A stretch of DNA of 45,866 nt from IMG/VR virus record IMGVR_UViG_3300005826_000024, positions 1 to 45,866 of that record. One strand, 5' to 3'. The notes under the pieces were generated by a model, which was not told the origin of the DNA, did not search any database, and worked only from the letters and a program-made list of their open reading frames with translations. Of the stretch, positions 10,824 to 39,930 are shown in pieces (within the stretch, counting starts at the first letter, position 1; each line of letters begins with the position of its first letter). The stretch comes from a virus. The position numbers and the translations under genes were made by a program.

Positions 10824-11180
10824 ATGGACACGAACATCGAGAACTTCAGCGCCCTTATCCTGGACGGAGCGGGGATCGTCGCAGACCAGTTGGGGGAGGT
10901 GAAAGCGAGAATGGCAGACTTGGCCAAATCGAAGAAGGAGCTAGAAGGTCACCTCATCGACTTGCTGCCGAGCGGCTTAGGCGGAAGCGTAGAGGGCGGC
11001 ATGTTTTGCGCTACTGTCGTGCCGGGTGGCGTGCGTAAAGCCATCAACTGGGAGTTGGTCGCGATGTTTCTCGCGGCCGAGCTTGGGATTGACGAGGGGC
11101 AGCTGAACGCTGCCGCAGGTGATTTCATGCAAGAGACTCGGGTATCGCCGAGCGTGCGCGTCTCGGCGCGCAAGAGTTAA
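10824..11180 (+). CDS. Hypothetical protein (118 aa), first rightward gene
   Basis: The product is 118 residues; GGAGG six bases upstream fixes the start. Residues 20-45 (LGEVKARMADLAKSKKELEGHL) are a coiled-coil-like helix, followed by GMFCATVVPGGVRKAINWELVA. That layout, a charged helix and then a 'xYRATV...xxxDW' strand-helix part, is common in small phage proteins of unknown role. It stands alone between the structured-RNA candidate and a terminator at 11205, so it may be a separate early transcript. No signal peptide or membrane segment is seen. Confidence 0.8.
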   Translation: MDTNIENFSALILDGAGIVADQLGEVKARMADLAKSKKELEGHLIDLLPSGLGGSVEGGMFCATVVPGGVRKAINWELVAMFLAAELGIDEGQLNAAAGDFMQETRVSPSVRVSARKS

Positions 11181-11204: not shown

Positions 11205-11230
11205 GCCCCGCTCATGCGGGGCTTTTTTTT
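11205..11230 (+). terminator. Intrinsic terminator
   Basis: The stem GCCCCGC/GCGGGGC (11205-11211 with 11216-11222), loop TCAT, is followed by eight T. It ends the transcript of the 118-aa gene. Confidence 0.92.
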
Positions 11231-11272: not shown

Positions 11273-11302
11273 GTTGACAAGCTACGTGAACCCGAGGAGA
11301 AT
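11273..11302 (+). promoter_or_regulatory. Rightward promoter candidate
   Basis: TTGACA (11274-11279), a 17-base spacer and GAGAAT (11297-11302, four of six) lie 43 bases after a terminator and before the structured leader and repeat-protein gene. GTTGACAAGC repeats part of the 10601-10619 operator, and TCAAC/GTTGA (11264-11268 with 11273-11277) gives another small palindrome over the -35. Confidence 0.45.
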
Positions 11303-11519
11303 GGATCCTGTAGCACGTAACACCGCGAAGGGCCAGCGGGATAGAAAAAGGGCACCGGGGTCAACCTGATCTAGAGCCGAAAGGCTGAGGGGCAGCCCCA
11401 GACCGCTAGGACTTAGCCGATCTGTCGAAAGGCTAACGAGTGCGAACCGACCGAGCCGGGCAGCGCCATCGATGCTGCGCAAGCACCCGGCTCGCAGAGA
11501 TAGGTGCCCTCGATCGAGG
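11283..11519 (+). ncRNA. Multi-hairpin leader or RNA candidate before the repeat protein
   Basis: Between the terminator at 11230 and the start at 11552 I see no good gene but many stems: TACGTG/CACGTA (11283-11288, 11314-11319); AGCC-GAAA-GGCT (11375-11386); GGGG-CAG-CCCC (11389-11399); TTAGCC/GGCTAA (11413-11418, 11431-11436); a 9-bp CGAGCCGGG/CCCGGCTCG (11452-11460, 11486-11494) with an inner CAGC/GCTG; and the palindrome CCTCGATCGAGG (11508-11519). GNRA-type loops suggest an RNA fold. It could control the gene downstream or be an independent RNA; no known riboswitch is recognised. Confidence 0.5.
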
Positions 11520-11551
11520 ACGTCGATTTCTGCGACAACAACGGGGGTAGC

Positions 11552-12490
11552 ATGATGCAAAACATTCTTAACCTGACGCAACACACGTTCGAACGTCCGT
11601 TTGGCTTGAATCTTGAGGAGGATGGTATGCCTGTATCAAGGAATGGCGATCGCCACGAAGTGCGGGAAGTGCGGGCGAGCGAGGTGGACGCCTGCTACGG
11701 CAGCACCGTACACGCCTACGAAGGCAGCAAGGTGGACGCCTACTACGGCAGCAAGGTGGACGCCTACGAAGGCAGCGAGGTGGACGCCTGCTACGGCAGC
11801 ACCGTACACGCCTACGACGGCAGCATAGTGCACGCCTACGAAGGCGGCGAGGTGGACGCCTGCTACGGCAGCACCGTACACGCCTACGAAGGCAGCGAGG
11901 TGGACGCCCACGGCGGCAGCACAGTGCACGCCCACGAAGGCAGCACAGCGCACGCCTACGAAGGCAGCGAGGTGGACGCCCGCGCCGGTAGCACGGTGCA
12001 TGCCCACGAAGGCAGCACAGTGCACGCCCACGGCGGCAGCACGGTTCACGTACACCACGGCAGCAAGGTGGACGCCCGCGCCGGTAGCACGGTGCATGCC
12101 TACTACGGCAGCAAGGTGGACGCCCGCGCCGGTAGCACAGCGCACGCCCACGAAGGCAGCACGGTGGCCGCCTACAGCAGCACGGTGCACGCCTGCTCCG
12201 GTAGCATGGTGCACGCCCACGAATGCAGCACCGTGCACGCCTACGAAGGCAGCAAGGTGGACGCCTGCTCCGGTAGCATGGTGTACGCCTACGACAGCAG
12301 CGAGGTGCACGCCTATGCAGGCAGCAAGGTGTACGCCAACGACGGTGGCATCGTGCACGCACACGAAGGCGGTACGGTGCATGCCTACTACGGCAGCACG
12401 GTGGAAGCCTACGCCGGCAGTACGGTGCATGCCTACGAAGGCAGCACGGTCGTCCGCGCGAATGGCAAGGGTGAATGGAGGAACGGATGA
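11552..12490 (+). CDS. Octapeptide-repeat beta-solenoid protein
   Basis: The product is about 312 residues. After a short N-terminal part it consists of 32 tandem units of the pattern V-[DH]-A-x-x-G-S-x (11684-12448), then a short basic tail. Such an even 8-residue pattern with V and A inside and G-S at turns suggests a beta-solenoid; similar proteins of unknown role occur in other phages. Units ending in K or E are nearly always followed by VDA, and those ending in T, I or M by VHA. The N-terminus MQNILNLTQHT matches the start of a different small phage protein family (xILNLTQHxAT). Starts: ATG 11552/11555 after GGGGG, or ATG 11627, with the better GAGGAG. It is coupled by ATGA to the next gene. 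Confidence 0.8.
   Translation: MMQNILNLTQHTFERPFGLNLEEDGMPVSRNGDRHEVREVRASEVDACYGSTVHAYEGSKVDAYYGSKVDAYEGSEVDACYGSTVHAYDGSIVHAYEGGEVDACYGSTVHAYEGSEVDAHGGSTVHAHEGSTAHAYEGSEVDARAGSTVHAHEGSTVHAHGGSTVHVHHGSKVDARAGSTVHAYYGSKVDARAGSTAHAHEGSTVAAYSSTVHACSGSMVHAHECSTVHAYEGSKVDACSGSMVYAYDSSEVHAYAGSKVYANDGGIVHAHEGGTVHAYYGSTVEAYAGSTVHAYEGSTVVRANGKGEWRNG
11684..12448 (+). repeat. Tandem array of 24-bp coding repeats (32 units)
   Basis: 31 units of 24 bp and one of 21 bp (the unit VAAYSST) add up exactly to 765 bp. Two unit types alternate irregularly: one with AAG/GAG then GTGGACGCC, one with ACG/ACC/ATG then GTGCACGCC. Because the unit is a multiple of three, several other frames stay open on both strands; these are artefacts. 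Confidence 0.95.
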
Positions 12491-12669
12491 AACAGGTTGG
12501 ACGGCATGTATACGTTACCTTCTGTAATGACCTTTGGTCGGTCACTATAGATCTCGGTGAATACTTTGCACCACTTGATGGCGGCGCTTGGAAAGAAAAG
12601 AAAGATGCAATAGTTGCCGCTCGCGCCGCTGCTACAGAATATAACTGCGGATGGACCATTGACGATTGA
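12487..12669 (+). CDS. Hypothetical protein (60 aa)
   Basis: The ATG at 12487 overlaps the stop of the repeat-protein gene as ATGA and has GGAGG five bases upstream; an in-frame ATG at 12475 is less well placed. The product begins MKQVGRHVYVTFCNDLWSVTIDLG and ends YNCGWTIDD. It looks like a small alpha/beta protein with no known family. Tight coupling suggests it works with, or is simply co-expressed with, the octapeptide protein. Confidence 0.7.
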   Translation: MKQVGRHVYVTFCNDLWSVTIDLGEYFAPLDGGAWKEKKDAIVAARAAATEYNCGWTIDD

Positions 12670-12713: not shown

Positions 12714-12971
12714 ATGAAAACCACCACGAAAATAGTTTGGGATGAAATCTCACAGCGCCGCGAGGCGCACCTCACCCTTCACATGGGTGATGAGAGCGAG
12801 TTTCTCGCTCTCGTGCCCGGTATCGGTGGAGCCCTTCGGCTCATCTGCCAAAGTGGGCAGATGCAGGTAGGCCGCAATGTCTGGGCCGACGGGATCGAGG
12901 TCAAGCGGGGTAGCACATACAGTGTCATTCCAGCCGGCGGCGTTGTGCATTTCGTCACTATCGCCAGCTAA
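12714..12971 (+). CDS. Hypothetical beta-rich protein (85 aa)
   Basis: GGAGGAG sits just upstream of the ATG. The 85-residue product is mostly short beta-type segments (AHLTLHMGDESEFLALV, GGALRLICQS, GSTYSVIPAGGVVHFVTI), which could fold as a small barrel or cupin-like unit. No catalytic residues are evident. It is part of the series of small rightward genes, each with its own strong ribosome-binding site. Confidence 0.75.
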   Translation: MKTTTKIVWDEISQRREAHLTLHMGDESEFLALVPGIGGALRLICQSGQMQVGRNVWADGIEVKRGSTYSVIPAGGVVHFVTIAS

Positions 12972-13736: not shown

Positions 13737-14822
13737 ATGATCACACTGATGCAAGCTTCCGCCGAATGGGCGTCCCGTCCCGCCGACCAGCGCTTCACCT
13801 CGTTGCACGATATGCAGGAGATGATGCAGCGCATGCGCGATCGCAGCCGCAACGTGATCGTGTCGAGCCGCGCCATCACGGCGCGTCCGGCTCACGGCAA
13901 CGACATCGATGTCATAGTCGCCGGGGGCGGTGGGGCTTATCAACCCACGCACTGGAGCTTCGGTCAGCTGGCGCAACGCGCTGGCGCGCCCGCAGGCTAC
14001 CTGCGCACGCTGCCCGCCGAGATGGCTGCCGATTGCATAAACTACGGCATGCGCTTCTCGCGCAGCGTCGAAGATGTTGGGATCCTGCTCCACAAGGATG
14101 AAGCCCCGGTTCTTCGGGCAGCGACTGGGCCCGGCTATGGACGCATCTGGAATGCGGACATCGTCCGCACTTTAGTCGAGCATGTCGGCGACGGCGTGAG
14201 CGGTGACTGGAAAGTGCCCGGCGAATTCAGGCAAGCCGTCCAGGTGACCAAAGACAACACGACGTTGTATGCGAGCGATCGCGATATGTTCGTCTTCCTC
14301 GCTGACGAAAAACACCGGATCGAGATCCCCAACCGCCGCAACGGCCAGCCGGGCTCGCTCGCTCGCGGGTTCTTCATCTGGAACTCGGAAGTTGGCAAGA
14401 CTACGCTCGGGATCGCAACGTTCCTGTTCGACTACGTCTGCGCCAACCGGATTGTGTGGGGAGCGAAGGAGTACAAGAAGATCACGATCCGTCACACTGC
14501 GGGCGCGCCCGATCGTTGGATCGAGCAAGTCGAGCCGGCGCTGATCGAGTACGCGGCAAGCACGCAATCGACGGTGCTCGACACAGTCAAGGCGGCCCAG
14601 GCGAAGAAGATCGACGATGTCTCCGAGTTCCTAACCAATCGGTTCGGGAAGAAAGTCGCAGCCGCGATCGAAGCGGTCCACGTCGAGGAAGAGGGTCGTC
14701 CGATCGAGTCTCTCTGGGACGCAACGACCGGAGTCACTGCGTACGCTAAGCAGCTGCCGCACCAGGATGCGCGCGTCGAGATCGAGCGCGCGGGTGGTGA
14801 GATTCTCGAACTTGCGGCTTAA
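13737..14822 (+). CDS. DUF932 family protein
   Basis: The 361-residue product matches the DUF932 (YfjQ/phage-plasmid) family: HWSFGQLAQRAGAPAGYLRTLPAE, GPGYGRIWNADIV, RDMFVFLADE, RGFFIWNSEVGKTTLGIATFLFDYVCANRIVWG. It is a frequent cargo gene of phages and plasmids with an unknown molecular function; a role in DNA metabolism or host take-over is only assumed. CTGGAG lies upstream of the ATG. It is the largest gene of the rightward block and is closed by its own terminator at 14830, with its own leader hairpins, so it is probably highly expressed. Confidence 0.93.
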   Translation: MITLMQASAEWASRPADQRFTSLHDMQEMMQRMRDRSRNVIVSSRAITARPAHGNDIDVIVAGGGGAYQPTHWSFGQLAQRAGAPAGYLRTLPAEMAADCINYGMRFSRSVEDVGILLHKDEAPVLRAATGPGYGRIWNADIVRTLVEHVGDGVSGDWKVPGEFRQAVQVTKDNTTLYASDRDMFVFLADEKHRIEIPNRRNGQPGSLARGFFIWNSEVGKTTLGIATFLFDYVCANRIVWGAKEYKKITIRHTAGAPDRWIEQVEPALIEYAASTQSTVLDTVKAAQAKKIDDVSEFLTNRFGKKVAAAIEAVHVEEEGRPIESLWDATTGVTAYAKQLPHQDARVEIERAGGEILELAA

Positions 14823-14829
14823 CGAGATT

Positions 14830-14857
14830 GCCCGCCTCTTCGGAGGCGGGCTTTTTT
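14830..14857 (+). terminator. Intrinsic terminator after the DUF932 gene
   Basis: The 9-bp perfect stem GCCCGCCTC/GAGGCGGGC with a TTCG tetraloop is followed by six T. The ribosome-binding site of the next gene starts directly after it. Confidence 0.95.
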
Positions 14858-37257: not shown

Positions 37258-37270
37258 TGTCATATCTCCT

Positions 37271-37310
37271 CAGCGGTTGTCAGCGGTTGTCAGCGGTTGT
37301 CAGCGGTTGG
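37271..37310. repeat. Four tandem copies of a 10-bp unit at a gene junction
   Basis: cagcggttgt is repeated three times and nearly a fourth time (cagcggttgg). In the leftward reading it gives CAACCGCTGA, so each unit repeats the stop of the 110-aa gene. The copies fill the spacer before the next ribosome-binding site. Confidence 0.85.
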
Positions 37311-39267: not shown

Positions 39268-39930
39268 TCAGGCCGCTTTGTTTCCGTAGATACGGTCAGC
39301 GAGATCGCGCGGCTGCTTGCTGCCACCGCCTTCTCCGCCAGTCTCGAACTTATCGTCACGCATCGCCTTTCCGACCTTGGCGAACACGCGCACGAGTTCA
39401 GGATGATTTCCGTACCCACTTTCGTTCAGTGCCTTGCGAAAATCCGCTGTTGCGAAACGCTCGAGCGCGCGGTTGACGTCGGAGATCGTAGCGTCGTAAT
39501 TGCTGCCGCCGATATCCTTGTCTGCCTTAATCGCGTCCGGCCACTGCTTCGTGACAAGCTCATTCCACTGCTGTTGACGCTCAGTGACAAGCTTCGTCAC
39601 CTCGGCATCGACAGTCCCAAGCAACTTCTTCGCGCTCTCCGAGTTCAGCCCGAGTTGGGTTGCGTACTCTTTGACGCGCGCAGTAGCTTCTGCATCGAGC
39701 GGAGAACCGTCTCGCAACGTCAGCGTGTACTCTCCAGTGTCTTTCGACTGCGCGTCCGACTGCTGGTTTTGCTGTTGCTGATCGCTGCCCTGCTGGTTCT
39801 GCTGCGATTGTTGATCGCCCTGCGATTGCTGGTTCTGCTTATCTTGCTGCTGGTTCTGCTTATCTTGCTGCTGGTCTTGCTGCTGGTCTTGCTGCTGCTG
39901 GTTCTGCTGCTGCTGGTTATCGTCAGACAT
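39268..39930 (-). CDS. Scaffolding protein with Gln/Asn-rich N-terminus
   Basis: The start is the ATG at 39930 (MSDDNQQQQ), with AGAGGA upstream. Residues 5 to about 60 are almost only Q, N, D, K and S from repeated CAG/CAA-type codons. The rest is helical and charged (ARVKEYATQLGLNSESAKKLLGTVDAEVTKLVTERQQQWNE), as in scaffolds preceding the capsid gene. It directs procapsid assembly and is then released. The Q-rich part is probably unstructured. Confidence 0.85.
   Translation of the reverse strand: MSDDNQQQQNQQQQDQQQDQQQDKQNQQQDKQNQQSQGDQQSQQNQQGSDQQQQNQQSDAQSKDTGEYTLTLRDGSPLDAEATARVKEYATQLGLNSESAKKLLGTVDAEVTKLVTERQQQWNELVTKQWPDAIKADKDIGGSNYDATISDVNRALERFATADFRKALNESGYGNHPELVRVFAKVGKAMRDDKFETGGEGGGSKQPRDLADRIYGNKAA

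Follow-up and report, generated by a model that had tools for sequence, protein, structure and literature searches.

Ice-nucleation proteins (INPs; PF00818) are solenoids with 16 residues per coil and the coil consensus AGYGSTQTAGEDSSLT, in which a TxT motif faces outward and the residue between its two threonines faces inward (PMC10727499, PMC9418140). Their coils are of two types, water-organising coils and R coils, with different roles (PMC10727499). Rods of the β-helix type are also formed by the pentapeptide-repeat proteins MfpA and Qnr, which have a five-residue repeat and four repeats per coil; MfpA is a precedent among these proteins for mimicry of DNA (PMC8145042). A third group, the self-associating autotransporters TibA and Ag43, are secreted adhesins. 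In the literature we found no description of a solenoid built from VxAxxGSx octapeptides, and in the records examined such proteins, which occur in tailed phages, in microviruses and in Obscuribacter-like bacteria, are entered without a name as “hypothetical proteins” and have no assigned function.

Here we describe an octapeptide array in the IMG/VR virus entry IMGVR_UViG_3300005826_000024 (GC content 58.5%), whose 45,866 nucleotides are called the window below. The array is a clean case in which to see how repeat proteins keep adjacent surface residues matched while their units are copied and shuffled, and it ties phage accessory genes to the solenoid type of the INPs.

Results

The source of the window is an uncultured podovirus-like tailed phage, with genes for a DNA polymerase, a primase/helicase, a 2809-aa LPD22 protein, a large tail protein, an endolysin, the major head protein, the portal and the terminase. 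The solenoid gene probably opens a rightward operon, which would be expressed early (Table 1). Two hairpins and a promoter-like site at 11274 together likely outline this operon, though as consensus matches and not as proof; about 1.4 such promoter sites are expected by chance in the region scanned. The upstream hairpin is a candidate, by its consensus match, for what separates the operon from the preceding gene. The open frame of the solenoid gene reaches upstream to a GTG at 11504, and translation probably starts at the ATG behind AGGAGG, so that the interval given in the preliminary description (11684–12448) leaves out both the likely start and the end of the gene. The next gene, of 60 aa, is probably translationally coupled to the solenoid gene; no family matched it above the cut-off. 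Several GAAA-loop hairpins, GCCGAAAGGC among them, lie in the leader at 11303–11500 (+). The leader gave no Rfam match above the gathering scores, did not fold clearly better than its shuffles (z −1.3), and was not found elsewhere when looked for.

Table 1. Positions in the window of the solenoid gene, its repeat array and the surrounding operon.
Feature	Position	Strand	Remarks
Preceding gene	10824–11180		closed by terminator-like hairpin
Intrinsic terminator-like hairpin + T8	11205–11222	+	consensus scan; 7 GC pairs, then TTTTTTTT
Candidate sigma-70-like promoter, TTGACA-17-GAGAAT	11274–11302	+	consensus scan, 10/12
Long GC-rich leader	11303–11626	+	~320 nt before start codon
Shine-Dalgarno-like GAGGAGG	11615–11621	+	sequence; precedes ATG 11627
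Solenoid gene	11627–12490	+	start ATG 11627 likely; 287 aa, 29.8 kDa, pI 5.7
Copied block EVDACYGSTVHAYEGS	11679–11728	+	exact 50-nt match to 11847–11896
32-unit array, V1-(D/H)2-A3-x4-x5-G6-S7-(T/K/E/I/M)8	11684–12448	+	
Copied block VDARAGSTVHA	11970–12004	+	exact 35-nt match to 12066–12100
7-residue unit VAAYSST	12164–12184	+	one codon lost in frame, in turn
60-aa gene	12487–12669	+	ATGA overlap with solenoid stop codon
85-aa gene, no family assigned	12714–12971	+	same operon
phrog_1362 / DUF932-like gene	13737–14822	+	last gene before terminator
Terminator hairpin	14830–14851		consensus scan

The array itself was confirmed as 32 units, 31 octapeptides and one heptapeptide, all in frame and followed by a degenerate VVRANGKG. 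TRF reported periods of 24 (score 647) and 72 (score 727). Across the units, pN/pS is 0.24 at V1, A3, G6 and S7 and 0.96 at positions 2, 4, 5 and 8; because of this difference, the array is a protein feature, with coding supported in the + strand and in the array's own frame. The 24-nt period accounts for the long open frames that also run on the opposite strand and in a further + frame. The array is thus a predicted solenoid module of tandem octapeptides in which the core positions 1, 3, 6 and 7 are under purifying selection and the surface positions are free.

Position 8 of one unit and position 2 of the next vary together, and the counts that the preliminary description had made by hand were reproduced. 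When the lead-in is included, 10 of the 12 lysines and glutamates at position 8 precede a D; the two that do not are an E before VHA (12305) and a K before VYA (12329). After T, I or M, D never follows (0 of 20) and H does so in 17 of 20. The coupling has a strength of phi 0.87, and Fisher's test over 33 units, the degenerate last one counted, gives p = 7e-7, a value that overstates the significance because the units were copied in blocks and hence are not independent. Other pairs of variable positions in the array are also linked, with an excess mutual information of 0.54 bits for 4→5, 0.41 for 4→8, 0.36 for 5→8 and 0.34 for 2→4, beside 0.52 for 8→2. D-units and H-units have the residue pairs YE, YY, HG and CS at positions 4–5 in common; the linked piece is thus the short 8-V-2 stretch and not two whole cassettes. 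The earlier proposal of two DNA cassettes shuffled as blocks therefore stands as regards the copying of blocks, which is visible in exact repeats, and in its strict form of two whole-unit cassettes is rejected. A charge-pairing code along the solenoid, proposed beside it, is likewise rejected: D follows E five times and K five times, which gives a net charge product of zero, histidine is for the most part neutral, and at lags of 1–4 units the charges showed no complementarity. A clean example of two cassettes, of the kind once suggested for the window, is the array of a Porphyromonas phage (L046:3737–4507, +), where the whole-unit types VRAWGSAT and VEACDSAT are irregularly mixed.

Exact repeats of 50, 44, 43, 35, 34 and 31 nt, at lags of 48–168 nt and in one case 525, indicate that blocks of 1.5–2 units were copied. 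The block at 11679–11728 is also related by shorter exact copies to 11774–11817 (44 nt), and another copy of VDARAGST lies at 12116. Whether such copying suffices was explored in crude simulations in which tandem units were duplicated, deleted and freely mutated, with a diversity roughly matched to that of the array; some settings retained only 20 runs. The share of runs that reached phi 0.87 was 0% in most settings, 1.7–4.5% in two and 20% in one, the last having a founder dimer, slower change in 8-V-2 and no breakpoints there. Copying alone thus needs favourable conditions; and since nearly all settings gave 0–4.5%, either the simulations miss something or selection on the pair is stronger than “mild”.

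A weak form of the rule occurs outside the window. In 62 other octapeptide arrays with 536 distinct unit pairs, the rule score was 31 against 17.8 expected (p = 0.0005): T/I/V at position 8 favours H/Y/F/W at position 2 (93 against 76 expected), and K/E/R favours D (11 against 4.6). The exact K/E–D pairing alone was not significant in these relatives (3 against 2 expected). At control distances, the enrichments of T/I/V with H/Y/F/W and of K/E/R with D/E were absent or reversed. Within the 33 most diverse arrays the rule was borderline (p = 0.048), and L049 and L084 supplied about half of the score in the diverse arrays. Judged from these sequences, a general 8–2 preference exists that is weak, and much sharper in the window array; among the octapeptide solenoids compared, only the window array has a near-complete two-state rule.

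AlphaFold2 predicted a regular β-solenoid from the single sequence (pLDDT 89.3, pTM 0.81) and did so again with eleven other solenoid sequences aligned (pLDDT 86.1, pTM 0.78), so that the fold rests on prediction from one sequence or from a thin repeat alignment. The predicted solenoid is continuous, with one β-strand per unit, made of residues 8-1-2-3 (8 from the previous unit), and a turn of residues 4–7. The covarying positions, whose placement the preliminary description had put forward as a check, fall on one strand in the prediction; being i and i+2, they would be neighbours on a single outer face, and strand alternation would point the valine between them inward.

The best match among solved structures was TibA (Z 21.0–21.1, rmsd 2.4–3.1, 230 residues), with further matches to Ag43 (Z 18–19) and to the antifreeze domain 3p4g of MpAFP (Z 14–16). 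The β-helix coils of these three proteins have 19–20 residues, and the aligned ranges, set against coils of that size, fit about 16 residues per coil in the window protein, which would probably have two units per coil. In bacterial arrays, both unit similarity and the aromatic/His pattern at position 2 peak at lag 2 (z 4.1 each); no lag-2 signal was seen in the phage arrays or in the window array. A three-unit coil, corresponding to the TRF period of 72, is not favoured: nucleotide identity is barely higher at lag 3 than at lag 2 (0.756 against 0.743), and the lag-2 periodicity of the relatives and the 16-residue fit of the structure matches speak against it. A sequence search against solved structures gave nothing significant, and the second-ranked BFVD match (TMq 0.77) is an entry named ectromelia virus caspase-9 inhibitor. 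TibA and Ag43 resemble the window protein in being rod-shaped β-helices (Z 18–21), but they are secreted, lack an exact octapeptide array and share 6–15% identity with it, so that only the fold is common. A role as tail spike or adhesin was rejected, as the matches are to general β-helices and the gene lies away from the structural genes.

When the INP coil consensus was slid along the unit profile, the best register set INP position 1 on unit position 3, with 5.8 expected identities in 16 (0.2–2.2 in the others). In this register the INP TxT falls on unit positions 8-1-2, exactly the coupled pair. The window protein is like the INPs in its octapeptide AxxGSTxT register, in its conserved A and S and, probably, in having two units per coil. 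It differs in having T-V-H or K/E-V-D instead of TxT, a valine where the INP x varies, no INP N-terminal domain, no visible export and about 16 coils as against 65. The predicted solenoid thus has no regularly stacked outward TxT, and ice binding was rejected for want of that motif. An hmmscan of the window protein at E up to 1 gave no PF00818 match, whereas PF00818 does match a related phage solenoid, L026 (E 2e-7). By register and by predicted fold, the window protein shares the architecture of the INP-type solenoids without being an INP itself. It also resembles MfpA and Qnr as a β-helical rod of repeats, but it gave no match to the pentapeptide repeats of PF00805, and its period is eight residues, not A(D/N)LXX.

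Protein searches found octapeptide solenoids in microviruses, Porphyromonas, Gordonia and environmental phages, and a loose DNA pattern found many in IMG/VR. Neither protein patterns in IMG/VR and GTDB genomes nor a strict DNA pattern in IMG/VR found a direct relative of the window array. A neighbour gene of the solenoid has relatives, and so does the portal, the latter at about 45–50% identity, with eight portal relatives in records of 38–46 kb. In searches without a positive control, no array was seen in those relatives of the neighbour gene that were covered, and a solenoid profile had no match among the portal relatives; nor did the DUF932-like gene match in the portal relatives searched for it. 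The negative results among the portal relatives suggest a region of accessory cargo. A second sample probably contains this phage species too: a portal gene 99% identical to that of the window stands there on a 5.7-kb contig that does not include the array (L112, IMGVR_UViG_3300022396_000274).

The other phage solenoids include those of the bajarodmic microviruses, Gordonia phage Spooky (gp76), Porphyromonas phage005b and Dulem virus 38, with more in IMG/VR (L017, L025, L026, L034, L039 and L042). They are like the window array in having VxAxxGSx units, a variable unit order and a place among small genes of early or accessory type; they differ in the residues at positions 8 and 2, and many are fused to DUF7666 and one lies inside RusA. 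In the named phages the neighbours are mostly small and uncharacterised; in some of these phages, genes for replication, recombination or methylases are also nearby. DUF7666 (PF24703) is fused to the solenoids of L016, L026, L044 and L081, and weakly L082, among which are those of Spooky gp76 and Dulem virus 38; its recurrence suggests a common function for solenoid and DUF7666 together. The window protein has no DUF7666. In L017 (13436–14326, −), about 18 octapeptide units (AGSTVCAESGSNVTAYFGS...) split the two halves of a RusA Holliday-junction resolvase, the C-terminal half matching PF05866 at 43–124, so that an enzyme here contains a solenoid of the same type. In two bajarodmic microviruses, 919 and 817 (L043 and L083), an additional solenoid gene of about 185 aa separates the gene for the replication initiator from that for the pilot protein, and takes up a considerable part of a genome of only 5.4–5.5 kb.

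Another DNA pattern, run on GTDB genomes, led to L049. Arrays are frequent among the relatives of Candidatus Obscuribacter, where 24 of 60 genomes in one set matched, compared with 0 of 300 genomes from the order of a Burkholderiales genome. These Obscuribacter-like genomes (L049, L069–L111) hold many octapeptide arrays, with up to 17 matches in one. Their unit sequences (TVHAHAGSIVHAYAGSTVHACAG) are very similar to those of the window; the arrays differ in being bacterial and chromosomal, several to a genome, with few VD units and a clear lag-2 periodicity.

Discussion

We favour, with a probability of about 0.55, an INP-like soluble rod shaped by unit copying and a mild side-chain preference at the 8–2 pair, which would most likely serve as an intracellular multivalent binder; its coil size, mutation mechanism, expression timing and function are the parts that we infer. 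Each octapeptide would form a short β-strand (8-1-2-3) and a turn (4–7), with V1 and A3 facing inward, as would S7 by analogy with INPs, and with positions 8 and 2 adjacent on the outer face. At two units to a coil of 16 residues, the rod would have about 16 coils and measure roughly 7–8 nm. The coupling would come mainly from the way the array grew, by copying one or several units at a time; crossovers would take place in the conserved runs GGCAGC and GCC and seldom within 8-V-2, while a mild preference for certain outward pairs, β-branched residues with H or aromatics and charged ones with D, would keep them together. The product would be an accessory early protein whose acidic, His-rich, repeated surface binds, multivalently and within the cell, a macromolecule of the host or of the phage.

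Two other accounts of the coupling have to be weighed. Descent could suffice if a founder dimer (E/K-VD plus T-VH) was amplified by unequal crossing-over, the coupling being unselected, unbroken linkage. The exact copied blocks of 31–50 nt and the linkage of other position pairs agree with this, and founder-dimer simulations with an unbroken, more slowly changing 8-V-2 reached the observed phi in 4.5–20% of runs at some settings; but most settings gave none, the pair stays matched although YE, YY, HG and CS occur with both D and H, and the weak form of the rule is found in unrelated arrays, so that we regard it as possible, though distinctly less probable than copying with a mild preference. 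At the other extreme, T-V-H and K/E-V-D coils might present distinct surfaces for binding or self-assembly along the rod. The coupled sites would be the TxT sites of INPs, which themselves carry two coil types with different roles (PMC10727499), and nine of the ten VD units lie within the first 19 units and are nearly absent afterwards, so that the ends of the rod differ in character. Against such a functional code stand the lack of charge complementarity at any lag, the lack of a regular face pattern and the failure of the INP profile to match the window protein, and we consider it improbable. Slightly more doubtful still is its fullest form, in which selection would match a two-state alphabet at the TxT-equivalent sites, with the charged state towards one end, and unit order would encode a pattern for binding or assembly, open to rewriting by the phage through recombination of units. 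If the two-state surface is functional, the array is a readable binding pattern; if it is not, it shows how easily block copying mimics one.

As to function, an acidic β-helical rod might block a DNA-binding host enzyme or defence protein by mimicking DNA, as MfpA and Qnr do. The gene's place in a probably early operon beside replication genes, the replication, recombination and methylase genes near the solenoids of phage relatives and a net charge of −20 over 287 aa would suit this role. The protein also has 16 basic residues and 28 histidines, its charges are irregularly placed and it is not a pentapeptide repeat; it had no PADLOC match, which says little. DNA mimicry is a reasonable rival, although we think it unlikely, and metal and ice binding are less likely than that. 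Metal binding would require stacked sites along the rod, formed by the histidines of positions 2 and 4 together with C or Y. Several units do have H at both positions, and the histidines are accompanied by 6 cysteines, but the H2–H4 pairs are broken irregularly, position 4 is mainly Y and relatives have Y, F, T, E or V at position 2; we consider this function very improbable.

Tandem repeats also occur elsewhere in this phage: four copies of TCAGCGGTTG lie at 37270–37309, and an array of the TGCTGGTTC type is found at 39827–39917, near the head genes.
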